Origin: Flammeovirgaceae bacterium
GTDB lineage: Bacteria; Bacteroidota; Bacteroidia; Cytophagales; Cyclobacteriaceae
Assembly (NCBI GenBank): GCA_023251155.1
Contig: JAHEZH010000048.1
Location: 1-36,796 of the forward strand
Direction: 5' to 3'
DNA length: 36,796 bases
The notes below the pieces were generated by a model. That model saw only the letters and a list, made by a program, of their open reading frames with translations. It made no database searches and was not told the DNA's origin. A program made the translations under genes and the position numbers. This document shows positions 16,802-35,239 of the stretch, piece by piece. The first letter of the stretch is position 1; each line of letters starts with the position of its first letter.

Positions 16802-19800
16802 ATGAACTTAATTCAATCCGCATTACGAAAACCAATTACCGTGGTGGTCGGCATTATCGCCATTGCGTTCTTCGCTTTTATATCAATTCAAAAAATTGCC
16901 GTTGACATTTTTCCTGCCCTGGATGTGCCCACGATTTATATCGCGCAACCCTATGGAGGGATGGCACCGGATCAGATGGATGGCTTGATGGCCACACGCT
17001 ATCAGGATCACTTTCTTTATGTGCAGGGCATTCGAAGTATCGAGATCAAAAGCATTCAGGGCTTATCGTTGATGAAGCTTACGTTTTATCCGGGAACAGA
17101 CATGGCGCAGGCGGCGGCTGAAGTGGCCAACAACATTTCGCGGGCCAAGGCATACATGCCCGAGGGAACAGTACCGCCACAAGTGGTGCGCTTCGATGCG
17201 AGTTCGGTACCGGTTGGTCAGCTGGTGTTTGAAAGCAAAAGCAGAACGTTGAATGAGTTGCAGGACTTTGCCGCATCCCGCGTGCGCCCCATGTTCTCTT
17301 CCATTCCGGGCGTATCTTCTCCTCCACCCTTCGGAGGAAATCAACGCACCATTGTGATCAAAGTGGATCCGGATCTGATGCGCAGCTATAAAGTTTCTCC
17401 CGAAGAAGTGGTGAAATCCATTGCCGCCACCAATCAACCCTCGGCTGCGGGCAACGTGCGCATTGGTGATTATACCATGATGACTCCGGTGAATTCCTTG
17501 ATTCGCAATCCGCAGGAATTTTTAGAAGTACCCTTGAAGTTAGGAAGCGGTCCTACGATCTTCTTAAAAGATATTGCCACCGTTGCGGATGCAGCCGACA
17601 TCACCGTAGGGTATGCCTTGGTAAACAGTAAACGTGCCATCTATATCCCCATCGTAAAGAAAGCAGATGCTTCTACGCTCGATGTGGTGAACAATGTAAA
17701 GAATGCATTGCCCCGCATGCGCGATGCCATACCGGAAGATGTATCGATCAAATACGAGTTCGATCAATCGGTGTATGTAACCAATCAACTGAGGAACTTA
17801 ATCAGTGAAGGAGCATTGGGGGCATTGCTCACCGGGCTGATGGTGTTTTTATTCCTGCGCGACTGGCGAAGTGTAGTGATTGTGGTGATCACGATTCCCA
17901 TCTCTATTCTGTCGGCCGTTATTCTTCTTCATCTCTTTGATCAAACCATCAACATCATGACGTTGAGTGGACTTGCGTTGGCGATTGGTGTACTGGTCGA
18001 TCAGGCCACGGTGTCGATCGAGAACATTCACCAGCATATGGAGATGGGAAAAACAAAATCGAAAGCAATTCTTGATGCGTCATTGGAGATTGCGTTTCCT
18101 GAGTTGCTGATTCTGCTTTGTATTCTCGCCGTGTTTGCTCCTTCGTTCATGATGGAAGGTATTCCCAAGTCGATGTTTCTTCCGTTAGCATTATCAGTTG
18201 GATTCGCGATGATCTCCTCGTATGTATTGGCGCAGACATTAGTGCCGGTGCTTTCCAACTGGCTGATGAAAGATCATCCAAAGCATGAAGCACCCACCTT
18301 AGCATTGGACAGTCGTGAAGAAAATCAAACGCTCATTGAAGACAACGCGCTCCATCATCAGCAAAAAGTAAGCGGCTTCGATAAATTCAAGTTGAGATAT
18401 GAACGCACACTGGAAAGCCTCGCGGATCGTGGTGGAATGGTCGTCACCGGATATCTCGTGCTTGCTTTTGTGTTAATTGGGTTGGGATTCCGTTTCATAG
18501 GAACAGACATTCTTCCCAAGTCAAACACGGGGCAGTTTCAACTACGGCTTCGCGCACCGGATGGAACACGCTTCGAGCGAACAGAAGAACTGACACTGAA
18601 AGCACTTCAGATCATTAACGAAGAAGTAGGTGAAGAAAATATGGGCATCACTTCCACGTACGTGGGAACGAATCCCTCCAGCTATGGAACAAGCTCTATC
18701 TTCGTGTTTACCAGCGGACCGCATGAAGCCGTAGTACAGGTGGCATTGAACGAAGCGTTTCATACGAACATGGCCGACTTGAAGGAACGCCTTCGTGCAA
18801 AATGGAAAGCAGCATTACCGGCCGTGCAGGTATCGTTCGAACCGATTGAGCTGGTGGAAAAGATCATGAGCCAGGGATCACCTACTCCTATTGAAATCTC
18901 CGTGGCTTCTAAAAACATTCAGGAAGCCTATCAATTTGCTTTACGGATTCAAGGTAAGATGGAGAAGATCCCCTTTTTACGCGATGTGCAGATTCCTCAG
19001 CCCTTGAATTATCCGGTAGTAAAGATTGATCTGGATCGTGAGCGTGCAGGTCAGATGGGCATCACGGCAAACCAGGTTGTTCGCTCCATGGTGACTTCCA
19101 CTTCATCGAGTCGTTTCACCGAAAAGAATTTATGGATGGATCCGAAATCAGGACTGGCCTACCAGGTACAAGTGCAGTTGCCTGAAAACCGAATCAAGAG
19201 CATGGAAGACATCAGCACGATTCCATTGGGTACATCGGGTGGTCGCCCGATTCTTTCAGATGTGGCCACCGTGTACCAGACCACAACGGCAGGGGAATAT
19301 GACCGCGAAGGACCTAACCGGCTAGTCACCATCACGGCTAATCTTCAGAATAAAGATTTGGGTTCTGCAAATGCAGAAGTACAAAAAGCAGTGAAGGCCG
19401 CAGGCGAACCTCCACGCGGGGTGATTGTGAATGTAAAAGGTCAGGTAAAGTTGCTGACCGAAACATTGTCCAGTTTGCAGGGCGGATTGGTGGTCGCCAT
19501 TGTCGTGATCTTTCTTTTACTGAGTGCCAACTATCAGTCTTTCAAAGTATCGGCCGTGATCTTATCGTCCGTGCCGGCAGTTATTGCAGGAAGTTTATTA
19601 TTGCTGCTTGCCGCAGGGTCAACACTGAATCTGCAATCGTACATGGGCATCATCATGTCGGTAGGGGTATCGGTAGCGAATGCCATTTTGATGATCACCA
19701 ATGCCGAAAACCTGCGCATGAAATTAGGCGATGCACGTGAAGCCGCATTGCTGGCAGCGAAGAGTCGTATTCGTCCGATCTTAATGACCAGTATCGCCAT

Positions 19801-20014
19801 GGTGGCAGGTATGTTGCCAATGGCTTTGGGTCTGGGCGAAGGCGGTGATCAGATTGCACCGCTGGGTCAGGCCGTGATTGGCGGGCTGATCGCGTCTACG
19901 ATAGCTTCCCTGCTGATTCTTCCCAATGCATTTGTCTCCCTGCAGAAGAACGCATCGTTGCAGTCGGTATCGCTGGATCCGGAAGATTCAGCGAGCCGAT
20001 TCTACAATAACTAA
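16802..20014 (+). CDS. RND efflux transporter permease
   Basis: 1070 residues from ATG 16802; the frame opens at 16721 inside the TolC gene but MNLIQSALRKPITVVVGIIAIAFFAF is the family's normal start. It is an inner membrane trimer subunit with twelve predicted helices and two large periplasmic loops. TM4 reads AIGVLVDQATVSIENI, so the AcrB Asp-Asp pair is Asp400-Gln401. TM10 reads VGVSVANAILMI, with Ala959 where AcrB has the relay lysine. TM11 keeps RIRPILMTSIAMVAGMLPMAL, including the conserved Arg and Thr. Proton coupling must therefore differ from AcrB. It belongs nearer to the hydrophobic/amphiphilic type than to the metal type, but the substrate is unknown. Adjacent genes complete the pump. 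Confidence 0.93.
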   Translation: MNLIQSALRKPITVVVGIIAIAFFAFISIQKIAVDIFPALDVPTIYIAQPYGGMAPDQMDGLMATRYQDHFLYVQGIRSIEIKSIQGLSLMKLTFYPGTDMAQAAAEVANNISRAKAYMPEGTVPPQVVRFDASSVPVGQLVFESKSRTLNELQDFAASRVRPMFSSIPGVSSPPPFGGNQRTIVIKVDPDLMRSYKVSPEEVVKSIAATNQPSAAGNVRIGDYTMMTPVNSLIRNPQEFLEVPLKLGSGPTIFLKDIATVADAADITVGYALVNSKRAIYIPIVKKADASTLDVVNNVKNALPRMRDAIPEDVSIKYEFDQSVYVTNQLRNLISEGALGALLTGLMVFLFLRDWRSVVIVVITIPISILSAVILLHLFDQTINIMTLSGLALAIGVLVDQATVSIENIHQHMEMGKTKSKAILDASLEIAFPELLILLCILAVFAPSFMMEGIPKSMFLPLALSVGFAMISSYVLAQTLVPVLSNWLMKDHPKHEAPTLALDSREENQTLIEDNALHHQQKVSGFDKFKLRYERTLESLADRGGMVVTGYLVLAFVLIGLGFRFIGTDILPKSNTGQFQLRLRAPDGTRFERTEELTLKALQIINEEVGEENMGITSTYVGTNPSSYGTSSIFVFTSGPHEAVVQVALNEAFHTNMADLKERLRAKWKAALPAVQVSFEPIELVEKIMSQGSPTPIEISVASKNIQEAYQFALRIQGKMEKIPFLRDVQIPQPLNYPVVKIDLDRERAGQMGITANQVVRSMVTSTSSSRFTEKNLWMDPKSGLAYQVQVQLPENRIKSMEDISTIPLGTSGGRPILSDVATVYQTTTAGEYDREGPNRLVTITANLQNKDLGSANAEVQKAVKAAGEPPRGVIVNVKGQVKLLTETLSSLQGGLVVAIVVIFLLLSANYQSFKVSAVILSSVPAVIAGSLLLLLAAGSTLNLQSYMGIIMSVGVSVANAILMITNAENLRMKLGDAREAALLAAKSRIRPILMTSIAMVAGMLPMALGLGEGGDQIAPLGQAVIGGLIASTIASLLILPNAFVSLQKNASLQSVSLDPEDSASRFYNN

Positions 20015-20091
20015 TTAAAAATCAGTCCACTGACTACCGTCAACTACGCTCCATGGACTCCAAATAATAAAGAACAAGTAAACGAATAAAG

Positions 20092-21195
20092 ATGAAATCG
20101 CTCAATTACGTATTCGCACTCATTATCATTCTCACAGTTGCGTGCTCCAAAAAAGAAGAGCATAAAACGGAATCAAAAAAATCTGTTGATACCGTAGAAA
20201 CAGTGATGATCCAAAAATTACAACCGGCCCGATCCATTGCGTTGCCTGGTGATCTTCGTCCCTGGCAAGTAACGAACATACAAGCTAAGGTGAAAGGGTA
20301 TGTTCGTATGGTAACTACTGATCGCGGATCGTCTGTAAAAAAAGGACAAGTACTTGCCACACTGGAAGCCCCCGAGTTGAAAGCACAATTGGCTGAAGCC
20401 CTGGCAAAGGTGGAAGATTACAAATCAAAACAGATGGCCAGCAAGCTTACATACACGCGCATGTGGCAGACCAGCAAAACACAAGGTGCGATTGCGCTCA
20501 ATGAACTGGATGTGGCCAAATCAAAAATGCAAGTGGATAGCATGCAGGTGTTATCTGCTACTGCTTCGTATCAGGCAATACAAGAGATGGTGAATTACCT
20601 AAATATCACGGCGCCCTTCGAAGGCACCGTAGTCGAGCGGAATATTTCTCCGGGTGAATTAGTGGGGCCTGAACGAAGCAAGCCCATGTTTGTATTGGAA
20701 AACAATCAAACCCTGCGGTTAACATTGGGTATCCCTGAGATTTATTCCGGTCAGTTGAAGGAGGCACAAGCGATCACCTTCAAAGTAACGGCCTTACCGG
20801 AAAAGATCTTCCATGCCAAACTATCACGCAGTTCGCAGAGTCTCGATTATTCCATTCGCTCTATGATGGTGGAGTTTGATGTCAATAACAAGGAACATTT
20901 ACTTAAAGCGGGCATGTATGCCGAAGTTACCTTGCCGGTAGAGCGTACCACACCAACGTTATTTGTACCCGCTACCGCAGTGGTCAATTCAACAGAGCGT
21001 GTGTTTGTCATTCAACTCATCGATGGCAAAGCCAGATGGATCGATGTGAAGATCGGCACACAAGCCAATGGCCTCACTGAAATCTTCGGACCTCTTGAAG
21101 AAGGTCAGCCCGTAGTAGCTAAAGCAACAGAAGAGCTGAGAGATGGAAATGAAATCGTGGGCAAAGCAGCGCAGCTGGAAGTGGCCGTAAAGTGA
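20092..21195 (+). CDS. RND periplasmic adaptor (membrane fusion) lipoprotein
   Basis: 367 residues. The N-terminus MKSLNYVFALIIILTVAC is a lipoprotein signal with cysteine at 18. A lipoyl-like half motif (TNIQAKVKGYVRMVTTDRGSSVKKGQVLATLEAPEL) is followed by a helical hairpin (LAEALAKVEDYKSKQMASKLTYTRMWQ to ASYQAIQEM), the second lipoyl half (ITAPFEGTVVERNISPGELV), a beta barrel and a membrane-proximal domain. This is the HlyD/AcrA-type adaptor that links the RND permease to the TolC duct. It is the last gene of the operon, 77 bp after the permease gene. Confidence 0.93.
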   Translation: MKSLNYVFALIIILTVACSKKEEHKTESKKSVDTVETVMIQKLQPARSIALPGDLRPWQVTNIQAKVKGYVRMVTTDRGSSVKKGQVLATLEAPELKAQLAEALAKVEDYKSKQMASKLTYTRMWQTSKTQGAIALNELDVAKSKMQVDSMQVLSATASYQAIQEMVNYLNITAPFEGTVVERNISPGELVGPERSKPMFVLENNQTLRLTLGIPEIYSGQLKEAQAITFKVTALPEKIFHAKLSRSSQSLDYSIRSMMVEFDVNNKEHLLKAGMYAEVTLPVERTTPTLFVPATAVVNSTERVFVIQLIDGKARWIDVKIGTQANGLTEIFGPLEEGQPVVAKATEELRDGNEIVGKAAQLEVAVK

Positions 21196-21237
21196 AGCAT
21201 TTATTCTTCCAAAGCGTTCTGAGGAACCATGAGTTAA

Positions 21238-21265
21238 TATTATCTGAATGTTATCGCAATGTTAA
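21238..21265 (-). promoter_or_regulatory. Pho-box-like triple repeat before the porin gene
   Basis: Read on the minus strand: TTAACA-N5-ATAACA-N5-ATAATA, i.e. TGTTAA at 21260, TGTTAT at 21249 and TATTAT at 21238 on the plus strand, with exact 11-bp spacing. The layout equals the TTAACA-type tandem boxes bound by PhoP/PhoB-family regulators in other phyla. It lies 32 bp upstream of a TAnnTTTG box, in the position of an activator site. Phosphate control is inferred from the site plus the gene's porin family. Confidence 0.5.
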
Positions 21266-21296
21266 AAGCTTAAAATTCAGGTAATATACAGGAGTC

Positions 21297-21304
21297 TATT
21301 TTTG
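21297..21304 (+). promoter_or_regulatory. Bacteroidota-type -7 box before the porin gene
   Basis: TATTTTTG is a perfect TAnnTTTG. No good -33 TTTG is seen at the expected distance, which would fit an activator-dependent promoter with the tandem boxes at 21238-21265. It predicts transcription start near 21311, so the ATG at 21310 would be leaderless or unused. Confidence 0.45.
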
Positions 21305-21309
21305 CGGGC

Positions 21310-22623
21310 ATGAATCAAAAAATTGCCCAAAAAATAAATTTTACTTCATTCTTTCATGGATTTATTTCTTATGAATCTGTGAAGAACAAATTCATTTCAG
21401 CATACATCACGGTTCCTGCTTTTATCCTAATTCTTAGCTCGGAAGTAGCAGCTCAAAAAACCGCTAAAAAACCATTTTCCACCTACTCCAGGAAAGGCAC
21501 GGGGCTTGGAGTGGTTGCTGCTGATAGTTTATTCTCCATCAACTTTCAGTTCCGGATGCAGAACAGGGTAATCTACACCAGTACCAGTGATACGGACCTC
21601 ACCCCTGATAAGTTTGAATCCCGCACACGAAGAATGCGCATGAAATTCAAAGGATTTGTTTACAATCCCAAGATCACCTATTACTTCCAACTGGCGCTGT
21701 CACGTGCCGATATGGACTGGGTAAACAACGATAACTCAAACGTGAATTCAAGTCCCAACGTAATACGCGATGCGGTGATGTATTACACCCCCAATGCCCG
21801 CTGGCGTTTTTCATTCGGACAAACCAAGCTTCCAGGCAATCGTCAACGTGTGACCTCCTCCGGTGATCAGCAGTTTTATGATCGCTCCATTGTCAATGCC
21901 TATTTCAATATCGATCGTGATTTCGGGTTCTTTGGTCAATATACATTGCCCCATATTGTTTTCAAGGGAGCACTTACTTCCGGTGAGGGAAGAAATGCCA
22001 CGATCAGTGATAAAGGTCTCGCCTATACCGGACGTGTTGAGCTTTTACCCCTGGGCAAATTCTCTTCGGATGTAGAAGTGGAAGGTGATCTCGATCGCGA
22101 ACCTGAACCTAAAGTCTCCATTGCTTCTTCTTATTCGTATAATGATCGTGCCATGCGCCAGCAAGGACAACTAGGAAATGACCTTTATGCGGCACGCACG
22201 CTGAGAACATGGGCTGTGGATATGGTGGCGAAATACAATGGCTGGTCGTGGTACTCCGAATTGATGAAACGCTCTACGGATGATCCTCACACAATCAATC
22301 ATGACAATCCGGAATTGATAAGAACCGTTTACACCGGCCACGGCTGGATGTCACAGTTGAGCTATCTGTTTAAGAATAATTTTGAAGTGGCTACCCGCTA
22401 TGCCAGGGTTACTCCTTCTTCTAAATTGTACAACAATCCCTTACACCCTACTGTGAACGAGAAGCAAACGGAGAACTACGAAGCAGGAGTAACACAGTAC
22501 ATCATGGCTCATCGTTTCAAGGTACAGGCAGGAGTGATCTACACCCGCCTGACGGACCTGTCCACCAATTCATTTTACAGATCCTACTGGACAACTGCAC
22601 TACAGGTGGAACTAGGGTTTTGA
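21310..22623 (+). CDS. OprO/OprP-type outer membrane porin
   Basis: 437 residues from ATG 21310; 414 from the in-frame GTG at 21379. The GTG gives a compact signal peptide MKNKFISAYITVPAFILILSSEVAAQ, and the promoter-like box at 21297 favours it. The mature protein is a likely 16-strand barrel of alternating strands with aromatic ends: SINFQFRMQNRVIYTS, FESRTRRMRMKFKGFVYNPKITYYFQLALSR and WRFSFGQTKLPGNRQRV, which is the FGQ-K-P hallmark of the phosphate-selective porin family. It ends in YWTTALQVELGF with C-terminal Phe, a barrel insertion signal. Upstream boxes suggest phosphate control. It lies between the efflux and ilv operons and is probably its own unit. Confidence 0.85.
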   Translation: MNQKIAQKINFTSFFHGFISYESVKNKFISAYITVPAFILILSSEVAAQKTAKKPFSTYSRKGTGLGVVAADSLFSINFQFRMQNRVIYTSTSDTDLTPDKFESRTRRMRMKFKGFVYNPKITYYFQLALSRADMDWVNNDNSNVNSSPNVIRDAVMYYTPNARWRFSFGQTKLPGNRQRVTSSGDQQFYDRSIVNAYFNIDRDFGFFGQYTLPHIVFKGALTSGEGRNATISDKGLAYTGRVELLPLGKFSSDVEVEGDLDREPEPKVSIASSYSYNDRAMRQQGQLGNDLYAARTLRTWAVDMVAKYNGWSWYSELMKRSTDDPHTINHDNPELIRTVYTGHGWMSQLSYLFKNNFEVATRYARVTPSSKLYNNPLHPTVNEKQTENYEAGVTQYIMAHRFKVQAGVIYTRLTDLSTNSFYRSYWTTALQVELGF

Positions 22624-22757
22624 TTGAAAACAAGAAGTAAAACCTAATGCCCGTAAGCAATAGCTAACATTCGTTTTTTGACTAAAAACAAAATATTTTC
22701 TCTTTTTACTTGAATGCTAGCCTTTAATTTGTGACAATTGTACTCGCACAGAACAGA

Positions 22758-22883
22758 ATGCTGACTTTAAACAAAATAACAGAACGCATAAGCAACAATC
22801 TTGATCAGGTTGAAGCCGTTATCACTGTGCTTGTCATTAGCGTGATTATTCTGGTAGTCAAACCCAGGGCGGTAATGATATAA
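22758..22883 (+). CDS. Branched-chain amino acid leader peptide (ilv attenuator)
   Basis: 41 codons with ATG and TAA, too short to be called usually. The C-terminal 24 residues read VEAVITVLVISVIILVV, then KPRAVMI: 15 of 24 are Val, Ile or Leu (8 Val, 5 Ile, 2 Leu). The stop codon lies 8 bp after an 'antiterminator' arm and 23 bp before the terminator hairpin. This is the arrangement of ilv leader peptides, where ribosome stalling at scarce Val/Ile/Leu-tRNA allows readthrough. A short membrane protein is a possible but poorer explanation, because the hydrophobic run is only about 17 residues and the RNA structures fit exactly. Confidence 0.8.
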   Translation: MLTLNKITERISNNLDQVEAVITVLVISVIILVVKPRAVMI

Positions 22884-22936
22884 CTTAATAAAAAAGAAAT
22901 TCATGAACCGCCCTGACTCACCCTCAGGGCGGTTTT
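22865..22936 (+). promoter_or_regulatory. ilv transcription attenuator: competing antiterminator and terminator
   Basis: Three arms are visible. CAGGGCGGT (22865-22873) lies in the leader peptide codons. ACCGCCCTG (22907-22915) can pair with it (9 bp, antiterminator). TCAGGGCGGTT (22924-22934) pairs with AACCGCCCTGA (22906-22916) as an 11-bp perfect terminator stem with loop CTCACCC and T-rich tail TTGTTTTAT. A ribosome at the TAA (22881) would cover the first arm and release the terminator; one stalled in the Val/Ile run would leave it free. Confidence 0.82.
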
Positions 22937-22942
22937 GTTTTA
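22906..22942 (+). terminator. Rho-independent terminator of the ilv leader
   Basis: Stem AACCGCCCTGA / TCAGGGCGGTT, 11 perfect pairs, 7-nt loop, then TTGTTTTAT. It lies 36 bp before ilvE and can only serve transcripts coming from the leader region or the upstream porin gene. Confidence 0.85.
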
Positions 22943-22954
22943 TACGGGCACGAA

Positions 22955-22970
22955 CAAACTAACGATTGTT
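22955..22970 (+). promoter_or_regulatory. 16-bp box shared by the ilvE and leuC leaders, copy 1
   Basis: CAAACTAACGATTGTT lies 7 bp before the ilvE ATG and is repeated exactly at 33088-33103, 3 bp before the leuC GTG. In both cases it follows the leader terminator. It may bind a protein or influence translation initiation. The function is not known to me. Confidence 0.6.
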
Positions 22971-22977
22971 TCAAAAT

Positions 22978-23865
22978 ATGTATTACACTGACGAAACGGT
23001 ACTTTTTCTCGATGGCAAGTTCATCAAAGCAAAAGATGCACGCACCGACCTTTTCGGACAAACCCTCCACTATGGCTATGGCGTGTTTGAAGGCATCCGC
23101 TCTTACGAGACCGTAAACGGCACCAAAACATTCAAAGCGCTGGAACACTACGAGCGCCTCAAAAGAAGCTGCGCACTCATGGGCATTCCGCTCGACTACA
23201 GTGCCGAAGAAATGAGCCAGATTACCTACCAGGTGTTAGAAAAAAACGAACTGACCAACGCGTACATCCGCCCGCTGGTGTTTTGCAGCCCCAACATGGC
23301 CCTTACCTCTCCCAACGAAGTATCGCTCATGATCACCGCGTGGGAAGTGGATCAGCATACCACCTTGCAACCGGCAAAAGTGTGCATCTCTTCATTTCAG
23401 CGCCCCAACCCCAAGGCGGTAACCATGGAAGCCAAGGTGTGCGGGTTGTACACCAACTCGATCTTAGCCACCATGGAAGCCAAGAAGCGTGGCTTTGATG
23501 ATGGTCTTCTCCTTGACTTGAATGGCTTTGTGGCGGAAGGGCCCGGAGCCAATTTTTTTTATGAGAAGGATGGTGTGATGTATACGCCTCCGGTTGGTAG
23601 CATTCTGCCGGGCATCACTCGCAAAACAGTAATCGACATCTGCCAGTTTCTCGATATACCCGTACAGGAGAAATACTTCCGCCCCGAAGAAGTGTTTGAA
23701 GCCGACAGCGCTTTCTTCTGCAGCACCATGCAGGAGATCGTTGCCATCGAATCCATCGAAGGACAAGCTTTCGCTAAACCATGGAAAGATTCACTGAGCG
23801 GATTGATACGTGATACGTACCGAAGCATTGTATTGGATAAGAGTTATGGATATGTAATCGTTTAA
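22978..23865 (+). CDS. ilvE: Branched-chain amino acid aminotransferase
   Basis: 295 residues from ATG 22978; an upstream TTG in frame overlaps the shared 16-bp box and is unlikely. It is a fold-type IV PLP enzyme that interconverts Leu, Ile and Val with their 2-oxo acids, using glutamate. The FGQTLHYGYGVFEGIRSYE segment near 26-44 is the family opening. K153 in MEAKVCGLYTNSI is the Schiff-base lysine. LNGFVAEGPGANFFYEKDG contains the catalytic Glu187. Length is normal. It is the first gene of the ilv operon, directly behind the attenuator, so the whole cluster is under that control. Chorismate-derived D-amino acid or ADCL relatives are excluded by the GVFEGIR motif and context. Confidence 0.93.
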   Translation: MYYTDETVLFLDGKFIKAKDARTDLFGQTLHYGYGVFEGIRSYETVNGTKTFKALEHYERLKRSCALMGIPLDYSAEEMSQITYQVLEKNELTNAYIRPLVFCSPNMALTSPNEVSLMITAWEVDQHTTLQPAKVCISSFQRPNPKAVTMEAKVCGLYTNSILATMEAKKRGFDDGLLLDLNGFVAEGPGANFFYEKDGVMYTPPVGSILPGITRKTVIDICQFLDIPVQEKYFRPEEVFEADSAFFCSTMQEIVAIESIEGQAFAKPWKDSLSGLIRDTYRSIVLDKSYGYVIV

Positions 23866-23968
23866 CCGTTATCCGTTAAACATATAAAAGTTAAAAGTCA
23901 GAATTAGGTAATAAAAAGTTATAAGCCACTAGTAACAATTAACTTATAACGATTAACGATTTAAAAAA

Positions 23969-25654
23969 GTGAGTACAGAACTAAATAAATACAGCAAGAC
24001 CATCACTCAGGACCCGACACTTCCTGCTTCTCAGGCGATGTTCTATGGAATCGGATTGAAAGAAAATGACCTGAAAAAAGCACAGGTAGGGATTGTAAGC
24101 ACGGGCTTTGATGGCAACGGATGCAACATGCACCTGAATGCACTGGCCGCTGAAGTAAAACAGGCTGTATGGGATCAGGAACTGGTGGGATTGATCTTCA
24201 ACACCATTGGCGTGAGTGATGGCATGAGCAACGGTACTACCGGCATGCGCTATTCACTGGTGAGCCGCGATGTGATTGCCGACTCGATTGAAACCGTATG
24301 TGGTGCACAGTTCTACGATGGGCTGATTGCCGTAGTGGGTTGTGATAAGAATATGCCCGGTGCATTGATGGCCATGGGCCGGTTGAATCGTCCCTCCATC
24401 ATGGTGTACGGTGGTACCATTGCCGGTGGGCATTATAAAGGAAGAGAGCTGAACATTGTATCGGCATTTGAAGCACTAGGTGAAAAGATTCAGAACAAAC
24501 TGTCGGATGAAGACTACAAGGGAATCATTCAGAATGCCTGCCCGGGTGCCGGTGCCTGTGGCGGTATGTACACGGCAAACACATTAGCATCAGCCATTGA
24601 AGCCTTGGGAATGGCATTGCCTTACTCTGCTTCCAACCCTGCCTTGAGCAAAGAAAAATCAGCCGAGTGTGTGGACGCTTCCAAAGCCATGCTTCACCTG
24701 CTGAAGAACGACATCAAGCCGCGCGACATCATGACCTTCAAGGCATTTGAAAATGCGATTACGGTTGTGATGGTATTGGGCGGATCAACCAATGCGGTAT
24801 TGCACCTCATTGCCATGGCCAAGAGTGTAGGACTGCAGTTGAACCAGGAAGATTTCCAACGCATCTCCGACAAGACATCATTGCTTGCCGATCTGAAACC
24901 AAGTGGCAAGTACCTGATGGAAGCCGTACATAAAATTGGTGGCGTACCTGCGGTGATGAAATACCTGCTGCAGAAAGGATACCTGCATGGCGATTGCTTA
25001 ACCGTAACCGGAAAAACAATCGCTGAAAACCTGGCCGATGCCAAAGACCTTGATTTCGAAAAGCAGGATGTCATCCTTCCATTCGAAAGACCGATCAAGA
25101 AGACGGGTCACCTGCAAATCCTTTATGGCAACCTGGCGGAGAAAGGATCGGTAGCCAAGATCACGGGCAAGGAAGGTGAAAAATTCAAAGGCACTGCACG
25201 TGTATTCAATGGCGAATTTGAGTTGGTCGATGGAATCCAATCGGGCAAGATCAAGGAAGGTGACGTAGTCGTCATTCGCTATGTAGGCCCCAAAGGCGGA
25301 CCCGGCATGCCCGAGATGCTGAAGCCTACCTCATTGATCATGGGTTCTGGCCTGGGCAAAAGTGTAGCACTCATTACTGACGGACGTTTCAGCGGTGGAT
25401 CGCACGGATTTGTGATTGGCCACATTACACCTGAGGCATTTGACGGAGGCCTTCTCGCCTTAGTAGAAGACGGTGACTGGATTGAGATTGATATCAAAAA
25501 ACGCCAGATCAATTTATTGGTAGAAGAAAAGAAGATCGCGATCAGAAGATCGCACCATAAAGCTCCTGAACTCTCGGTAAAGAGCGGAGTACTTTATAAA
25601 TATGCTAAACAAGTAAAAACTGCAGCTGATGGATGCGTTACTGACGAAGACTAA
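23969..25654 (+). CDS. ilvD: Dihydroxy-acid dehydratase
   Basis: 561 residues from a GTG start ([14 protein letters not shown]). It dehydrates 2,3-dihydroxy-isovalerate and 2,3-dihydroxy-3-methylvalerate to the 2-oxo acids. The cysteines for the Fe-S cluster are C52 (DGNGCNMH), C125 ([10 protein letters not shown]) and C197 ([14 protein letters not shown]). [19 protein letters not shown] is the conserved C-terminal part. Length matches the family. The start is preceded by two tandem AACGATT words. The 3' end overlaps ilvB by 26 bp in another frame, implying translational coupling. Confidence 0.95.
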
Positions 25655-27380
25655 AATAATTAAAGAAGCCGCTACCGAACCGAAGAAGAAAATCTCCGGA
25701 TCGGAAACACTGCTTCAATGCCTGGTAGAAGAAAACGTAAAAACGATTTTCGGATATCCGGGTGGGGCAATCATGCCGATCTACGATGCACTGTATTCGT
25801 ATGCCGATCAGCTCACTCACATCCTCGTTCGTCATGAACAGGGTGCAATACATGCGGCACAGGGTTTTGCACGTGTGTCCGGCGAGCCGGGAGTTGTATT
25901 TGCAACGTCTGGCCCTGGTGCCACTAACCTCGTGACCGGTCTTGCCGATGCATTGATCGACTCAACCCCATTGGTTTGTATCACCGGACAAGTATTTGCG
26001 CACCTGCTGGGAACCGATGCCTTTCAGGAAACCGATGTGATCAACACAACGATTCCGGTGACCAAATGGAATGTGCAGGTCACCGAAGCCAAGGACATTG
26101 CTCCTGCCATCGCGAAAGCCTTTTACATTGCAAAGACCGGAAGACCCGGACCTGTGCTGGTGGACATCACCAAGAATGCGCAGAACGAACTCATTGAAGA
26201 AATGGAATACAAAAAGTGCGAAAGCATCCGCACCTACAAACCAAAGCCAGTTCTTCAGTTATCAGAAATAGAGGCCGCCGCGGAGCTGATCAACGGTGCA
26301 AAACGCCCTTACATTCTTGCCGGTCAGGGGATATTACTATCTGGTGCCTGCCAGGAACTGGTCGCGTTCTCTGAAAAGACAGGAATACCGGTAGCCAATA
26401 CGCTGTTGGGATTAGGGGCAATACCTGCTGATCATCCTAACTACGTAGGTTATCTCGGGATGCACGGCAACTATGGCCCTAACGTCAATACGAATGAGTG
26501 TGATGTACTGATCGCCATCGGTATGCGCTTTGACGATCGCGTGACGGGCAACGTCAGCAAGTATGCCAGGCAGGCAAAGATTGTTCACATCGACATCGAT
26601 AAAGCGGAAATCAATAAGATCATCAAAGCCGATGTGGCGGTTTGTGCCGATGCAAAGGAAGCATTGCAATCATTAACTCAAAAGTGCAAGGCAGGCCATC
26701 ATGAAGCATGGATCAGCACTTTCCGGGAGTTCAAGAAACTGGAACACGAAAAGGTAATCAGGAATGAACTGGAAGCCGGTGGTGAGTTGCGCATGAGCGA
26801 AGTGATCCATCTGCTTTCGGAACTGACCAACGGAGAAGCAATTGTCGTAACGGATGTAGGGCAGCACCAGATGGTCACCTCCCGTTACTATGCCTATAAA
26901 AAATCAAGAACCAACGTCACCTCCGGCGGTGCGGGCACCATGGGCTTTGCATTACCGGCAGCGATGGGCGCTAAAGTAGCCAAGCCTAAGCAACAGGTGA
27001 TTGCCGTCATTGGCGATGGCGGCTACCAGATGACCATACAGGAGCTGGGCACCATCATGCAATACGGCATCGGTGTGAAGATCCTTGTACTGAATAACAA
27101 CTTCCTGGGTATGGTGCGCCAGTGGCAGCAACTGTTCCATGGCAAGCGCTATTCCTTCACTGAAATGCAGAATCCGGACTTCGTGAAGATCGCAGAAGCC
27201 TACAGCATCAAAGCCAATAAAGTGACCGAGCGCGAAAAACTGAAAGACGCACTCAAAGAAATGCTGGAAGCCAACAGTTCTTACTTCCTGGAAGTAGTCG
27301 TGGGCAAAGAAGACAATGTATTCCCAATGGTACCTGCGGGTGCGGGCGTGTCTGAAGTTATGTTAGAAATTCCAAAGTAG
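25629..27380 (+). CDS. ilvB: Acetolactate synthase, large catalytic subunit
   Basis: 583 residues. Thiamine diphosphate enzyme making 2-acetolactate or 2-aceto-2-hydroxybutyrate from pyruvate. Catalytic Glu70 lies in [17 protein letters not shown]; the [27 protein letters not shown] segment is the family signature; the GDG motif of ThDP binding is at about 462-464 (IGDGGYQM), followed by [13 protein letters not shown]. The N-terminus runs about 20 residues longer than typical, because the ATG lies inside the end of ilvD. Its small regulatory subunit gene follows within 6 bp. Feedback inhibition by Val is expected through that subunit. Confidence 0.95.
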
Positions 27381-27386
27381 GTGTGT

Positions 27387-27677
27387 ATGAAGGAAGAGTT
27401 CACAATAGAAATAGCGTCTGAGAATAATTTTTCTGTACTGAACAGAATCATCAATATTCTCAATCGCCGAAGGATACGGATTAAAAAACTGATGGCATAC
27501 GAAAACGAAAACGACTTCAAAAAAGGAGGCGCCATCATACTGGTACATACGACCGCCGATTTGATTGAGAAAGCAAAACACCAGCTGGAAAAACTGATTG
27601 AGGTAGAGTTTGCAAAATACACTCAGGGCAGTTCTCTTTATTTAGAGAGAAGTGAACAGATTGTGGATGTGGATTAA
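27387..27677 (+). CDS. ilvN: Acetolactate synthase, small regulatory subunit (short form)
   Basis: 96 residues from ATG 27387 (a GTG 6 bp earlier is also in frame). It is a single ACT domain: FTIEIASENNFSVLNRIINILNRRRIRIKKLMAYEN, then AIILVHTTADLIEKAKHQLEKLIEV. It stops where full-length IlvH/IlvN (about 160-170 residues) continue into a second domain, so it is of the IlvM/short IlvN size class. The role is binding the effector valine and stimulating the large subunit. The start lies 6 bp after the ilvB stop. Confidence 0.88.
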   Translation: MKEEFTIEIASENNFSVLNRIINILNRRRIRIKKLMAYENENDFKKGGAIILVHTTADLIEKAKHQLEKLIEVEFAKYTQGSSLYLERSEQIVDVD

Positions 27678-27724
27678 GTCAATTGACGATGAGCTGGTTT
27701 GATATCGAGGCAATGTCTGACACC

Positions 27725-27788
27725 GTGGTCGGTGTCTGCACAGACCACAAAGTTCAATAAACAGTTTCGGTCTGCGGAGACACCGACC
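27725..27788. repeat. Inverted pair of 20-bp palindromic repeats after ilvN
   Basis: GGTCGGTGTCTGCACAGACC (27727-27746) and GGTCTGCGGAGACACCGACC (27769-27788) are inverted copies of each other with 2 mismatches, spaced by 22 bp. The first is also a self-hairpin with GTGGTC/GACCAC arms. It resembles a REP doublet of a different sequence class (GGTC core) and lacks a T-run, so it is not an obvious terminator. It could reduce readthrough into the methyltransferase gene. Otherwise the 27678-27849 gap is empty. Confidence 0.75.
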
Positions 27789-27849
27789 GGGGATAAGAGG
27801 GAACAGACCGAGGTAAAAGAAAAGAGATAATAGGGAAGCGCATTAATTC

Positions 27850-28452
27850 ATGAACCAGACAATAGAACAGGCCTATCCAAAAGCGTATGCTGAAATCGAC
27901 CAGTCAACCAAAGACTCCGGCTTCACTATGGCTTCGGATGTATTGACGTGCTCACTGCTACGAACATTGGCAAGCTCAAAACCGGCGGGTCAATTCTTGG
28001 AACTGGGTACGGGCACAGGCCTAAGCACGGCGTGGATACTGGATGGAATGGATCATGCTTCTTCGTTAATCTCCGTTGACTTCGATCAGCAATTTCTTTC
28101 CATCGCTGAGCAGTTCCTGGGCACTGATCCACGATTGAAACTGATTCATTCCGATGGTGGCGAATGGATGGCGAAGAACAAGCACCAGCGCTTCGATTAC
28201 ATCTTCGCCGATACATGGCATGGCAAGTACTTGTTGCTGGATGAAGCCATTGCCATGCTGAAAGATGGAGGCCTCTACATCATCGATGATATGCTGCCAC
28301 AGCTGAACTGGCCGGAAGGTCATGCCGAGAAAGCCACCCAGCTGATTGCCGAAATTGAAAAAAGGAGCGACCTCACCATCACCAAACAAAACTGGGCCAC
28401 CGGTCTGATCATCGGGGTAAAAACCAATAAAGCGGACCCAAGAAATAACTGA
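27850..28452 (+). CDS. Class I SAM-dependent O-methyltransferase-like protein
   Basis: 200 residues. Motif I QFLELGTGTGLSTAWILDGM spans about 48-67, followed by an acidic strand SLISVDFDQQ and RFDYIFADTWHGKY, then a Asp-Asp motif LYIIDDMLPQLNW. This is the O-methyltransferase/catechol-type Rossmann fold with a possible metal site. It is inserted between ilvN and ilvC with a 170-bp gap before and 44 bp after it. It has no known role in Val/Leu/Ile synthesis. The substrate is unknown; a neighbouring, separately acquired gene is as likely as a functional link. Confidence 0.75.
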   Translation: MNQTIEQAYPKAYAEIDQSTKDSGFTMASDVLTCSLLRTLASSKPAGQFLELGTGTGLSTAWILDGMDHASSLISVDFDQQFLSIAEQFLGTDPRLKLIHSDGGEWMAKNKHQRFDYIFADTWHGKYLLLDEAIAMLKDGGLYIIDDMLPQLNWPEGHAEKATQLIAEIEKRSDLTITKQNWATGLIIGVKTNKADPRNN

Positions 28453-28496
28453 ACAACGATTAACAATTAACTTAATAACGATTAACTAAAAACAAA

Positions 28497-29567
28497 ATGG
28501 CAAAGATCAATTTCGGAGGAACAATAGAAGACGTAGTAACACGTGAAGAGTTTCCTATGGAAAAAGCACACGAAGTGCTGAAAGGTGAAACAATCGCGAT
28601 TATCGGATACGGTGTGCAAGGACCTGCACAGGCATTGAACCTTCGTGACAATGGATTTAAAGTAATCATCGGCCAGCGTAAAGGCAGCAAAACCTGGGAT
28701 AAGGCTGTGAGCCACGGATGGGTTCCTGGTGAAACACTTTTTGAAATTGAAGAAGCAGCAAAGAAAGCAACCATCATTCAGTTCCTTCTTTCCGATGCGG
28801 GTCAGATCGCTCTGTGGCCATCATTAAAACAATACCTCACAGCAGGCAAAACATTGTATTTCTCTCACGGATTTGGAATCACCTTTAAAGAACAGACCGG
28901 TATCATTCCTTCCGCTGACATCGATGTGATCCTTGCTGCACCAAAAGGATCAGGTACGTCGGTAAGAAGATTATTCCTGCAAGGCAAGGGCATCAATGCC
29001 AGCTACGCGGTATTTCAGGATGCAACCGGCAAAGCAAAAGACAAGGCCATTGCATTGGGAATTGGTGTAGGTGCTGGTTATTTGTTTGAAACGGATTTCA
29101 AGAAAGAAGTGTACTCTGACCTGAGCGGTGAGCGCGGTACATTGATGGGCGCTATCGCCGGTATCTTCGAAGCGCAATACGAAGTGTTGCGCAGCAACGG
29201 CCACTCTCCTTCGGAAGCGTTCAACGAAACAGTAGAAGAACTAACTCAATCACTGATGCCGCTGGTGGCTGAAAACGGCATGGACTGGATGTATGCGAAC
29301 TGCTCCACTACCGCACAACGTGGTGCGTTGGACTGGAAGAAGAAATTCAAAGCAGCTACACTACCTGTATTCAAGGAATTATATGAAAGCGTGGCAACAG
29401 GTGCTGAAGCTAAACGCACAATCGAAACCTGTTCGAAGCCTGACTACCGTGAGAAACTGGCGGAAGAACTAAAAGAACTGCGCGAAAGCGAACTGTGGCA
29501 AGCCGGTGCAGCCGTACGCGCACTCCGCCCCGAGAAAGCAAGTGTAGAAGCAAGTATGATCAATTAA
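28497..29567 (+). CDS. ilvC: Ketol-acid reductoisomerase
   Basis: 356 residues. It isomerises and reduces acetolactate with NADPH and Mg2+. The GYGVQGPAQALNLRDNGF segment near 37-54 is the Rossmann nucleotide loop, and GQRKGSKTW after the second strand carries the Arg/Lys/Ser expected for NADPH phosphate binding. LAAPKGSGTSVRRLF, SDLSGERGTLMGAIAGIFEAQYE and YANCSTTAQRGALDWKKKF are family landmarks; SDLSGERGTLMG includes metal-ligand acidic residues. The size fits class I. Two AACGATT words precede the ATG at 28455 and 28477. Part of the ilv operon. Confidence 0.94.
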   Translation: MAKINFGGTIEDVVTREEFPMEKAHEVLKGETIAIIGYGVQGPAQALNLRDNGFKVIIGQRKGSKTWDKAVSHGWVPGETLFEIEEAAKKATIIQFLLSDAGQIALWPSLKQYLTAGKTLYFSHGFGITFKEQTGIIPSADIDVILAAPKGSGTSVRRLFLQGKGINASYAVFQDATGKAKDKAIALGIGVGAGYLFETDFKKEVYSDLSGERGTLMGAIAGIFEAQYEVLRSNGHSPSEAFNETVEELTQSLMPLVAENGMDWMYANCSTTAQRGALDWKKKFKAATLPVFKELYESVATGAEAKRTIETCSKPDYREKLAEELKELRESELWQAGAAVRALRPEKASVEASMIN

Positions 29568-29581
29568 GTAAGTATGCAATT

Positions 29582-29643
29582 GGCAAAAAGCAATAGGCGA
29601 AGGATTTGACTTTGCCTACTGCTTTTGCCTACTGCCTATTTTT
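29582..29643 (+). terminator. Long hairpin with T-run between ilvC and ilvA
   Basis: GGCAAAAAGCAATAGGCGAAG (29582-29602, written here as its two halves GGCAAAAAGC and AATAGGCGAAG) pairs with 29610-29629 (CTTTGCCTAC, TGCTTTTGCC) over about 19 bp with one bulged A and one A-C mismatch. The T-run TTTTTT starts at 29639, 9 bp past the stem. The 3' side also carries a 13-bp tandem (TTTGCCTACTGC at 29611 and 29624). It may attenuate ilvA relative to the genes before it. Confidence 0.55.
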
Positions 29644-29650
29644 TAAAATT

Positions 29651-30901
29651 ATGACAGAAGTAACTACCAAAACCATCGATATCAACGCTGCCTACGAAGT
29701 ACTCAAGTCGGTCGTGCTCAAAACACCCCTGCAGTTTCATCGTAAGCTATCAGAGAAATTCGGTGCCGAAATTTACCTGAAGCGGGAAGACCTCCAGGTG
29801 GTGCGTTCGTACAAATTGCGTGGAGCGTATAACCTGATTCAAAGTTTGACCGAAGAGCAGCGGCAACGTGGTGTGGTGTGTGCCAGTGCAGGTAACCATG
29901 CACAGGGTGTTGCCTTTTCCTGCAAACAGTTAAATATCAAAGGCGTCATTTACATGCCTGCAATCACTCCCAAACAAAAAATCACGCAGGTGAAAATGTT
30001 TGGCGGCAACAACATTGAAATTGTATTGACAGGTGATACGTTTGATGACTGCCAGGCACAGGCATTGGAGTACACGGCAGAAAATAACAAAGTATTTATA
30101 CCTCCTTTCGATCACCTCAAAGTCATTGAAGGCCAGGGAACGGTAGCGAAAGAAATCTTTGATGAATTATCGCAGGTAGACTACCTCTTCGTTCCCATTG
30201 GTGGCGGAGGCTTGTGTGCTGGTGTTTCACAATACGTGCAAACCTACTCTCCCCATACAAAAATCATTGGCGTGGAACCTACCGGTGCACCTTCCATGAA
30301 AGAAGCATTGAAGGAAGGACATCCTGTAAAGCTGGAGAAAATACAGCGCTTTGTGGATGGCGCTTCCGTGCAAAAAGTAGGCGAGATTACGTTCTCACTG
30401 TGTAAAGACAGCCTGGAAGACATGTTGCTTGTTCCCGAAGGAAAAGTAAGCTCCACCATTCTTCAGTTATACAATGAAGATGCGATTGTAGCCGAACCCG
30501 CAGGTGCATTGTCGATAGGTGCATTGGATCAATATGCCGACAAGATCAAAGGCAAAAAAGTAGTCTGTATTGTAAGCGGTGGTAATAATGACATCGACCG
30601 CATGCAGGAGATCAAAGAACGTTCGTTGCTCTATGAAGGACTAAAACATTATTTCATTGTACGCTTTGCCCAGCGACCGGGGGCATTGAAAGAATTTGTC
30701 AATCACATTCTTGGCCCTAACGATGACATCGTTCGCTTCGAGTTCATTCAGAAACACAACAAAGAAACGGGCCCGGCACTGATCGGAATTGAAGTGAAGT
30801 CGAAGGAAGATTTCATTTTACTCATCAACCGCATGACGGAATCAAAACTGAATTATACATTAGTGAACCAGAACGAGAACCTGTTTGAGTATCTGGTGTG
30901 A
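29651..30901 (+). CDS. ilvA: Threonine deaminase (L-threonine ammonia-lyase), short ACT-like form
   Basis: 416 residues from ATG 29651; an open frame from 29606 runs through the hairpin and is not used. It makes 2-oxobutyrate from threonine, the first step to isoleucine. PLP lysine K55 in VVRSYKLRGAYN, glycine-rich phosphate loop GGGGLCAG, and SGGNNDIDRMQEI at the core end. The C-terminal 90 residues (HYFIVRFAQRPGALKEFVNHILGPNDDI onward) form one ACT-like regulatory domain, as in the 400-420-residue class, so isoleucine feedback is likely. The stop TGA (30899-30901) abuts the stop of the next, convergent gene with no gap. Confidence 0.94.
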   Translation: MTEVTTKTIDINAAYEVLKSVVLKTPLQFHRKLSEKFGAEIYLKREDLQVVRSYKLRGAYNLIQSLTEEQRQRGVVCASAGNHAQGVAFSCKQLNIKGVIYMPAITPKQKITQVKMFGGNNIEIVLTGDTFDDCQAQALEYTAENNKVFIPPFDHLKVIEGQGTVAKEIFDELSQVDYLFVPIGGGGLCAGVSQYVQTYSPHTKIIGVEPTGAPSMKEALKEGHPVKLEKIQRFVDGASVQKVGEITFSLCKDSLEDMLLVPEGKVSSTILQLYNEDAIVAEPAGALSIGALDQYADKIKGKKVVCIVSGGNNDIDRMQEIKERSLLYEGLKHYFIVRFAQRPGALKEFVNHILGPNDDIVRFEFIQKHNKETGPALIGIEVKSKEDFILLINRMTESKLNYTLVNQNENLFEYLV

Positions 30902-32854: not shown

Positions 32855-32948
32855 AGACATTAAAAATAGCAAACCACTTTATCAAAGCATATTATTTCAT
32901 TACCAAACGACCGTAAGTCAATGGTAAAAATTCTTTAACATTTAGTTG

Positions 32949-33029
32949 ATGCAAGGCGTAAGTTTTCACATCTTTAGGCCTTGCGGAATCAATCTCATCG
33001 TTGATTCTTCATCACTAAACCTAAACTAG
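32949..33029 (+). CDS. Candidate leu leader peptide
   Basis: 26 codons, ATG to TAG: MQGVSFHIFRPCGINLIVDS then SSLNLN. It ends one base before the terminator stem upstream of leuC. It has three Leu codons (CTC, CTA, CTA), three Ile and two Val, clustered in the second half (INLIVD, LNLN). An exact inverted repeat GCAAGGC (32951) / GCCTTGC (32978) would fold within its transcript, like a pause hairpin. The position is right for an attenuator, but Leu content is modest and no clean antiterminator is seen. An unused short ORF is possible. Confidence 0.42.
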   Translation: MQGVSFHIFRPCGINLIVDSSSLNLN

Positions 33030-33075
33030 AAGCTGCCTCGTCCTATGTCTATAGGGTCGGGGCAGTTTCGTTTTT
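33030..33075 (+). terminator. Rho-independent terminator in the leuC leader
   Basis: Lower stem CTGCCTCG (33033-33040) / CGGGGCAG (33058-33065) with one G-U pair, internal loop, upper stem CCTAT (33042-33046) / ATAGG (33051-33055), loop GTCT, then TTTCGTTTTT. It is on the plus strand 31 bp before leuC; the gene upstream is on the minus strand, so it must act on transcripts starting in the 32873-33030 gap or on ilv readthrough. That is what an attenuator would need. Confidence 0.75.
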
Positions 33076-33087: not shown

Positions 33088-33103
33088 CAAACTAACGATT
33101 GTT
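33088..33103 (+). promoter_or_regulatory. 16-bp box shared by the ilvE and leuC leaders, copy 2
   Basis: CAAACTAACGATTGTT, identical to 22955-22970. It ends 3 bp before the leuC GTG. Related AACGATT words lie shortly before ilvD (23948, 23955) and ilvC (28455, 28477). Confidence 0.6.
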
Positions 33104-33106: not shown

Positions 33107-34522
33107 GTGAGTGTAGAAAGACCAAAAACCATCTTCGAAAAAATCTGGGACAAACACGTTGTAAAACGTTCAGAAGGATACCCGGATGCCGTGTTTATCG
33201 ACCGCCATTTCATTCATGAAGTAACCAGCCCACAGGCATTTGATGGTCTGCGTAAGCGGGGCATTGGCGTATTTAATGTGAACCGTACTTCGGCTACAGC
33301 CGATCACAACGTTCCTACCAAAGATCAACACCTTCCCATCAAAGAAGCATTATCACGCCACCAGGTGGAAACGCTACGTAAAAACTGTGCGGAGTTTGGT
33401 GTCGAGTTGTATGACCTGGGTCATCCATTCCAAGGTATTGTTCACATCATTGGCCCCGAGTTAGGATTAACATTGCCAGGCATGACCATTGTATGTGGCG
33501 ATAGTCATACTTCCACCCACGGTGCCTTCGGAAACATTGCCTTTGGTATCGGTACTTCAGAAGTAGAACAGGTGTTGGCTACGCAATGCATTTTGCAATA
33601 TAAGCCCAAGACCATGCGCATTGAAGTCAATGGAACCCTGGGCAAGGGCGTGGTCAGCAAGGACATTATCTTATACATCATTTCAAAAATATCAGCCAGT
33701 GGTGCCACTGGCTATTTTGTTGAATATGCGGGCGATGCCATCACCCGTCTATCTATGGAAGCCCGCATGACGATCTGTAACATGAGCATTGAGATGGGTG
33801 CGCGTGGTGGATTGATTGCTCCTGACGAAACCACCTTCAACTATATCAAAGGAAGAAAATTTGCTCCTCAAGGCAGAGCATTCGATTCGGCCGTAGAAGA
33901 ATGGAAGAAACTAAAAACAGACGATGATGCCGTATACGATGTGGTGTTGAAATTCGATGCCGCAGACATTGGCCCGATGATCACCTACGGAACCAACCCG
34001 GGTATGGGCATGAAAGTAACGGACCGCATTCCTACGGTGGAAGAACTGAAAGAAATCAACGAGCAGGTTTCATTCAAAAAATCACTGGACTACATGGGCC
34101 TTGAACCGGGTTCAGCTATCCTTGGCAAACCCGTTGATTATGTATTCATCGGAAGCTGTACCAATGCTCGCATTGAAGACTTGCGCACAGTGGCCTCCAT
34201 GGTGAAAGGAAAGAAGAAAGCGGCCGGTGTTGAAGTGTGGGTAGTGCCCGGCTCAAAGCAAGTCCAGGAGCAGGCAAAGAAAGAAGGTCTTGATAAAATC
34301 TTTGAAGAAGCCGGATTTGAATTACGTGAGCCCGGCTGCTCGGCTTGCCTGGGAATGAATGAAGATAAAATTCCGGCCGGCAAATACTGCATCAGTACTT
34401 CCAACCGGAACTTTGAAGGAAGACAAGGACCCAAGTCAAGAACATTTCTGGCGAGTCCATTGAGTGCAGCTGCCGCTGCCATTACAGGTAAGGTGACGGA
34501 TGTGAGAGATTTGAGTTATTAG
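33107..34522 (+). CDS. leuC: 3-isopropylmalate dehydratase, large subunit
   Basis: 471 residues from a GTG start. Isomerises 2-isopropylmalate to 3-isopropylmalate with a [4Fe-4S] cluster bound by C351 ([12 protein letters not shown]), C411 and C414 ([11 protein letters not shown]). VIFID... style motifs include [26 protein letters not shown] and the C-terminal [23 protein letters not shown]. Length is normal. It is the first gene of leuC-leuD-leuB-leuA; leuD, its partner subunit, follows 60 bp later. Confidence 0.95.
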
Positions 34523-34559: not shown

Positions 34560-34582
34560 TCACTAACCATTAACGAATAACA

Positions 34583-35170: not shown

Positions 35171-35239
35171 CGGTAAGCGATTCGCTGCCGCCCTCCGCCT
35201 TGCAGCCAACAGCTTGAAGCCTTTAATAAATATAAGAAA

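Follow-up and report, generated by a model that had tools for sequence, protein, structure and literature searches.

A probable ribosome-mediated attenuator upstream of ilvE in the Cytophagales and an operator-like box at a near-fixed distance behind its terminator

The 36,796-nt stretch of Flammeovirgaceae DNA analysed here (hereafter, the window) carries what is very probably a ribosome-mediated transcription attenuator of the ilv operon, to which one protein binding at two operator-like boxes, O1 and O2, would add a second layer of control. The kind of attenuator is known, ribosome-mediated attenuators being a feature of the enteric ilv and leu operons, and leader-peptide attenuation has already been suggested in print for the Bacteroidota; the new part is the combination of an attenuator with a spaced box. 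A preliminary description of the leader had read it as ribosome-mediated attenuation, and comparison with relatives supports this reading, as the open reading frame (ORF) and the arms are kept in 45 leaders and the terminator covaries.

The ilv leader and its alternative helices

The leader lies downstream of an ORF, porin-like by eye, that ends at position 22623 and upstream of ilvE, the gene for the branched-chain aminotransferase (22978–23865, with the ATG at 22978; this and all other features with coordinates are on the forward strand). The best models for ilvE, PRK06606 and ilvE_I, gave scores of 265.4 and 244.2, just below the curated cut-offs of 279 and 245.55, but its family assignment is not in doubt. 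It is followed on the same strand by ilvD (23969–25654), ilvB (25629–27380), an ilvN-like small ORF of 98 aa (27381–27677), ilvC (28497–29567) and ilvA (29606–30901), which were recognized by profile matches, apart from the ilvN-like ORF, named by its position and by eye. The cluster ilvE-ilvD-ilvB-ilvN-ilvC-ilvA of the preliminary description thus stands as far as the common strand is concerned, with the reservation about ilvN and with one more member, a methyltransferase-like ORF (27850–28452) between the ilvN-like ORF and ilvC whose matches were weak and all far below the curated cut-offs. Control by the attenuator presumably extends over the whole cluster. Between ilvA and leuC there is an ORF of 656 aa on the opposite strand, and leuC, leuD and leuB (33107–36376) were again identified by profile matches.

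Promoter-like elements were found by eye at 22710–22740, namely TTG (22710–22712) and, after 20 nt, GACAATTG (22733–22740), which we read against what we take to be the Bacteroidota −33/−7 consensus. This TTG-N20-xAnnTTG arrangement is located 5′ of the leader ORF and downstream of O1, and relatives have it, by eye, in a similar place. RNA polymerase would start just upstream of the leader ORF (22758–22883), which runs from ATG to TAA, is rich in Ile, Val and Leu codons, encodes the peptide MLTLNKITERISNNLDQVEAVITVLVISVIILVVKPRAVMI and has a counterpart in all 45 aligned leaders (window included). Our recount agrees exactly with the earlier figures of 41 codons and 15 Val, Ile or Leu residues among the last 24 of the peptide. 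The stop codon starts at 22881, 8 positions past the final base of arm 2, and the geometry is as had been described, with a ribosome at the stop codon placed so that it would cover that arm. The putative control codons Val-Ile-Ile-Leu (GTG ATT ATT CTG, 22842–22853) were located by the A-site folding series given below, and the run, in the form V/I-I-I/L-L, is common to most of the aligned leaders.

Both helices proposed earlier consist entirely of standard pairs. Arm 2 (22865–22873), the antiterminator 5′ arm, was placed by the pairing check and the alignment and forms nine pairs with positions 22907–22915, the antiterminator 3′ arm. The latter is part of arm 3 (22906–22916), which at its full length is also the terminator 5′ arm and forms 11 pairs with arm 4 (22924–22934), the terminator 3′ arm, as seen in the pairing check, the terminator scan and the covariation. 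After the GC stem comes an interrupted U-tract, TTTTGTTTT (22933–22941), and the same TTTTGTTTT is found in 34 of the 46 ilv copies. Folding gave a z of −6.4 for the RNA 22860–22917, and the ilv terminator ranks first in strength among the 17 terminator-like sites located in positions 19000–33000 (12 pairs with G-T allowed).

In the mechanism that we propose, plentiful charged Ile, Val and Leu tRNA would let the ribosome proceed to the stop codon, where it would cover arm 2 and leave arms 3 and 4 to form the terminator, and scarcity of these tRNAs would make it stall at the Val-Ile-Ile-Leu run, so that arm 2 would be free to pair with arm 3 and transcription would proceed into ilvE. Folding with a ribosome block, a check suggested in the preliminary description, predicted antitermination for a ribosome stalled at the two Ile codons (22845–22850) and termination for a ribosome at the stop codon. 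With the 3′ edge of the ribosome set at 12 nt past the A-site codon, the value for the antiterminator in the window was 0.92–0.96 with ATT 22845 or 22848 in the A site, 0.61 with the A site at 22842 and 0.53 with the A site at CTG 22851; it varied from 0 to 0.68 for A sites farther upstream, and the terminator reached 0.99 for A sites from 22854 through the stop codon. The value for the terminator with no ribosome was 0.70 or 0.22, set by the choice of the 5′ end.

We also folded the 45 leaders at the moment when arm 3 is complete. At this intermediate stage, an A site nine codons before the stop left the antiterminator at 0.5 or above in 41 of the 45; this number was 40 at eight codons, 27 at seven, one at six and zero from five codons to the stop itself; relatives L112, L017, L022 and L025 lacked it even at this stage. 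In equilibrium folds with the terminator complete, the antiterminator remained below 0.5 at all tested ribosome positions in 40 of the 45 leaders, the window being among the five with equilibrium switching. Under the proposed mechanism, the switch in those 40 leaders must therefore be kinetic and the antiterminator must form first.

The preliminary description spoke of a compact three-arm version of the attenuator. An additional arm 1 can pair with the 5′ part of arm 2 (22849–22854 with 22864–22869) in a possible protector hairpin (22849–22869), and we prefer to call the leader a four-arm one because this hairpin is predicted in most relatives and is possible in the window. In 43 of the 45 leaders, the prediction for arm 2 before arm 3 is made is a pairing with upstream sequence, and the protector hairpin is paired in 85.8% of the alignment cells (95.6 and 79.3% per helix), its pairs being the least well kept among the helices of the leader. 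In the window, it forms in RNA that starts at 22845, and longer RNA has competing pairings. The role of the protector hairpin is not secured, as the antiterminator forms in 35 of the 45 no-ribosome intermediates and the no-ribosome fold of the window is ambiguous.

The leader of an amino acid operon would also be a suitable location for a riboswitch or a T-box, binding a metabolite or tRNA, respectively. We hold this to be next to impossible here, given that the conserved feature is a peptide-coding frame and that no Rfam family was matched in the window at the curated thresholds. The relaxed thresholds yielded eight sub-threshold matches, none of them to a riboswitch or T-box and all to unrelated families apart from His_leader (19.6 bits versus 49).

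Conservation of the leader in relatives and across the order

Used as a DNA query, the 231-base leader had matches in 26 of the 35 other genomes of the genus and in none of the 22 genomes of other genera. From genus genomes and database records we gathered 46 distinct ilvE leaders (window included); most of the records that share these elements are assemblies from metagenomes, named Cyclobacteriaceae, Cytophagales, Flammeovirgaceae or Bacteroidetes bacterium. The leaders were picked by the 16-mer of O2 with up to three mismatches, so that the conservation of this 16-mer inside the set is biased upward. One of them, the ilvE locus L059 of the genus, has O2 and, by eye, no such leader, and was left out of the alignment and of the counts of 45. 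Many of the leaders are closely related and these counts are therefore not independent.

The absence of a conserved peptide and of conserved arms from close relatives had been named as evidence that would speak against attenuation. What we found is a frame rich in branched-chain amino acid (BCAA) codons with a stop at or near the end of arm 2 in all 45 distinct ilvE leaders (the window and 44 relatives). The frames have 9–15 Ile, Leu or Val among their last 26 residues, start with ATG in 44 leaders and often end in ...VLVLINVIILRKPGL; for each relative, the frame richest in these residues was chosen, and in the shuffled control the best frame was likewise the one that counted. Of the 45 real leaders, 41 contain an ATG ORF no shorter than 20 aa that has at least 10 Ile, Leu or Val in the last 22, versus 7 of the 900 dinucleotide shuffles.

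Comparison of the arms among relatives, likewise proposed in the preliminary description, revealed covariation in the terminator, which is paired in 98.6% of the alignment cells (45 leaders) with 32 both-side changes versus 9.1 in shuffles. The antiterminator is paired in 87.2% of the cells (45 leaders; slid controls, 32–54%), partly via G-U pairs, as in the 14 leaders with a C to U change in the terminator to which arm 2 still pairs, and partly via A-U in place of G-C in three leaders; of its nine pairs, that between columns 68 and 110 is present in just 19 of the 45.

To cover the order, 146 genomes were searched with IlvE; 38 matched at E ≤ 1e-40, and the best 30 places, the window being one, were taken as loci. 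We looked within 400 nt upstream for a frame with at least 9 Ile, Leu or Val among 20 residues and then a terminator within 75 nt, and found this combination at 21 of the 29 loci (window aside) versus 0 of 290 shuffles; the other eight failed the test. The positive loci comprise four of the six from the same family and 17 of the 23 from outside it, the latter belonging to five other families and including several close kin. Some of the positive loci had been overlooked by a stricter terminator scan. In L227 and L228, two BCAA leader ORFs are found upstream of ilvE, seemingly in tandem, each followed by its own terminator.

These comparisons bear on the alternative that the hairpin is an ordinary intrinsic terminator of the upstream transcript and that the hydrophobic ORF is there by chance, without attenuation. 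Such a reading draws on the number of terminator-like sites in positions 19000–33000, which at 17 is about as high as in shuffles (13.8, sd 3.9), and on leuC, which is also preceded by a terminator-like hairpin with an interrupted U-tract (33029–33069) and in whose 25 leaders we found no ATG ORF of 20 aa holding at least 8 Ile, Leu or Val of 22. We consider it very improbable, as the ORF with its BCAA codons is kept in all 45 ilv leaders and stops near arm 2 in each, the 5′ arm of the terminator keeps its pairing with arm 2 besides that with arm 4, and the combination of a leader ORF with a terminator recurs in 21 of 29 loci across the order.

The preferred reading, attenuation by a translating ribosome, places the leader next to the enteric ilv and leu attenuators, with which it shares alternative arms, an intrinsic terminator, a BCAA operon downstream and a leader peptide in which the regulated amino acids abound. 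Unlike these, it has Bacteroidota-like promoter elements, is flanked on either side by an operator-like box, lacks an Rfam match at threshold and is short, its ORF stopping close to or right where arm 2 ends. Within the phylum, strong clues for leader-peptide attenuation in front of operons for amino acid biosynthesis are reported from Flavobacterium psychrophilum (PMC9723704), in a paper whose main text contains ‘ilv’ 0 times and in which boxes behind the terminator were not seen. Leader-like small ORFs are mentioned for Bacteroides (PMC7366714), and the Bacteroid-trp motif RF01692, described as a putative cis-regulatory motif of Bacteroidetes (PMC2864571), did not reach its threshold in the window. 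No description of an ilv attenuator came up in our search of the literature on BCAA attenuation in Bacteroidetes, whose scope did not include an attenuation survey from 2010 (10.1134/S0026893310010164) that may contain an earlier prediction of this leader.

Operator-like boxes at the ilv and leu operons

The box O2 is a 16-mer, CAAACTAACGATTGTT (22955–22970), that starts 22 nt after the GC stem of the ilv terminator. The O2 of the leu operon (33088–33103) is identical to it, so that the window has two copies of CAAACTAACGATTGTT, one ahead of ilvE and one ahead of leuC; the last 15 bases of O2, with one mismatch allowed, had no further match in the window's own genome. Among the collected copies (window included), O2 (16 bases, CAAACTAACNNTTGTT) starts 22 nt past the terminator stem in 43 of the 46 ilv and 21 of the 25 leu copies, and the remaining spacings are 20, 21 or 23 nt, with 14 nt in L059. 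These spacings take the final base of the GC stem as their reference point, which was fixed after a first, noisier measurement. That measurement, by automatic stem trimming, gave spacings scattered over 14–23 nt (16–23 nt in leu, 17–22 nt in ilv), with 22 nt in 22 of the 46 ilv and 12 of the 25 leu copies, and was replaced.

The spacer between terminator and O2 is kept in length and not in sequence, since the 11 nt preceding the box have just 40% pairwise identity, with 38 distinct versions among 45 ilv and 21 among 25 leu copies. The distance from O2 to the start codon is 2–13 nt in ilv and mostly 0 in leu, and the match coordinates put the start of leuC in other genera about 25–45 nt past O2. 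In genome G096 (L212), an O2 with one mismatch is 22 nt from the terminator and about 200 nt from ilvE. This relative has the highest IlvE identity in the order-level search (81%). Altogether, ten loci from six genera of the family have a terminator–O2 spacing of 21–23 nt. Of the 118 family genomes, 15 carry exact CAAACTAACNNTTGTT (19 sites), eight of them at ilvE or leuC. Every one of the 12 exact sites at these genes is behind a terminator; at the other seven, inspection by eye showed no terminator, and neither ilvE nor leuC was found. A role of O2 as a second promoter (−7 element) was rejected on inspection, as the T-run spacing is too long and the GTG of leuC would be upstream of its own start. 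The pattern with which database records were found also had matches away from ilv and leu, in L072, L078, L082, L091 and L117 (Flavobacteriaceae, Kordia, Ulvibacter, Patiriisocius), with a fuller palindrome, AACTAACGATTGTTAGTT, that by eye is upstream of a phenylacetate-pathway reductase-like gene and that we take to resemble the PaaR operator.

Upstream of the promoter-like elements, the box O1 (CTAACATTCGTT, 22664–22675) has one mismatch to CTAACATTCGTTA. With up to three mismatches and 231–296 nt before O2, CTAACATTCGTTA was found in 44 of the 45 ilv copies that have enough upstream DNA (window included), 28 of these being exact. A looser core, accepted at any place and on either strand with up to two mismatches, is present in 42 of 46 ilv upstream regions versus 19 of 230 shuffles and in 18 of 24 leu upstream regions versus 10 of 120 shuffles. 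Exact CTAACATTCGTTA occurs once each in 15 of the 39 genomes, by position before the ilv O2 in 13 of them and elsewhere in G003 and G046. The longer form of O1, CTACCWAACNNTYGTWA, has nine sites in the 39 genus genomes, seven at ilvE and two at leuC; this strict pattern is absent from 30 of the 39 genomes, including the window's own, and is therefore regarded as a lineage-specific form.

The core CTAACNNTYGTT is common to O1 and O2. As a genome-wide motif it was rejected, its 13 occurrences in the own genome (three of them at ilv/leu) being fewer than those of the reversed control (68), and so was a looser palindrome, CTAACNNTYGTTWG, which had fewer matches than its reversed control across 23 genomes. 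By eye, the own-genome CTAACNNTYGTT sites L174, L176 and L169 are near genes resembling those for acyl-CoA dehydrogenase, branched-chain keto acid dehydrogenase and glutamine synthetase III.

In the leu leader of the window, an O1-like box, CAAACGACCGTAAG (32904–32917), fits the degenerate consensus CNAACRMYYGTNAG, which was derived from the leu copies themselves, and is weaker than the ilv O1. Such a weaker relative of O1 lies 140–184 nt before O2 in leu, with none convincing in L096 and L148. In several leu leaders the promoter-like element is, by eye, so close that little room remains. Short ORFs containing Ile and Leu were seen by eye in two leu leaders of another genus (L244 and L245), where a mini-leader may exist. 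Some leu leaders (L087, L116 and L153 among them) have CCTAA repeats (AACCTAACCTAAACCTA) between promoter and terminator, and a shorter run of these repeats is found in the window at 33015–33029.

Possible roles of O1 and O2

Our reading is that O1 and O2 are candidate operators, found in part of the family only, and that the box in front of the promoter and the one behind the terminator are probably bound by the same protein at each of the two operons, ilv and leu. Because O1 is upstream of the promoter-like elements, it is presumably untranscribed, and this speaks for a protein that binds DNA. It also weighs against O2 being an RNA or translation element of the ilvE and leuC 5′ UTRs, a proposal that would suit the coding-strand orientation of O2 in those ilv and leu copies that we saw and its direct contact with the start codon in 22 of the 25 leu copies. 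An element of this type would be expected neither in O1, which has the same core, nor about 200 nt from ilvE yet 22 nt from the terminator, as in G096 (L212), nor about 25–45 nt before leuC, as in other genera, and we regard the proposal as improbable.

For the DNA-binding protein, a repressor or activator might act from O1 and O2 at the promoter or via DNA looping, in which case the terminator would be irrelevant to O2 and the 22-nt spacing would be inherited. This arrangement, to which we give slightly less than an even chance, would stand beside the attenuator and not in its place. It would account for the position of O1 upstream of the promoter-like elements and for the core CTAACNNTYGTT that O1 has in common with O2. 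A further point is the clustering of the ilv O1–O2 distances at 259–265 and 270–276; the periodicity near 10.75 bp (R 0.42) is, however, too weak for a claim of helical phasing and is confounded by kinship. A parallel is offered by the Listeria ilv operon as presented in PMC5864092, where the ribosome-mediated attenuator Rli60 is accompanied by two putative CodY sites, one ahead of the leader and the other ahead of ilvD; as here, a BCAA attenuator comes with putative factor sites before the leader and before the first gene. In contrast to the Listeria arrangement, the box here is at a fixed distance behind the terminator and recurs at leu. Action at the promoter or by looping fits less well with the spacing of 21–23 nt between terminator and O2 in 10 loci from 6 genera and both operons, which is kept even though the last 11 spacer nt are 40% identical and the O2-to-start distance varies from 0 to about 200 nt.

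More speculatively, the terminator and O2 could form a composite, in which a weakened terminator would be efficient only with a BCAA-sensing protein on O2 as a roadblock. A protein 22 bp behind the stem would hold RNA polymerase in the U-tract, which is interrupted near position 4–5, and the terminator would be coupled to the leader peptide in ilv and stand alone in leu. The front edge of RNA polymerase is roughly 18–20 nt ahead of the RNA end, so that, as a matter of geometry, a protein bound at O2 would meet the polymerase in or near the U-tract. Within the first 9 nt, no T run exceeds 4 in 69 of the 71 O2-linked terminators (mostly TTTTGTTTT or TTTCGTTTT). The longest run is at least 5 in 12 of the 13 non-O2 terminators before ilvE, which were picked by their T-rich tails and are partly doubtful as attenuators, and in 15 of the 17 non-O2 attenuator-like loci of the order-level leader test.

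Judging by the covariation and by the leaders in several families, BCAA attenuation is common in the Cytophagales. The boxes O1 and O2, which occur in part of the family and for the most part at ilv and leu, could lead to a BCAA regulator, and the near-fixed distance between terminator and O2 makes it possible to test whether a protein acting from downstream tunes intrinsic termination. If O2 does hold a roadblock to RNA polymerase, one regulator would act both on initiation, through O1, and, at a fixed mechanical distance, on termination, through O2.
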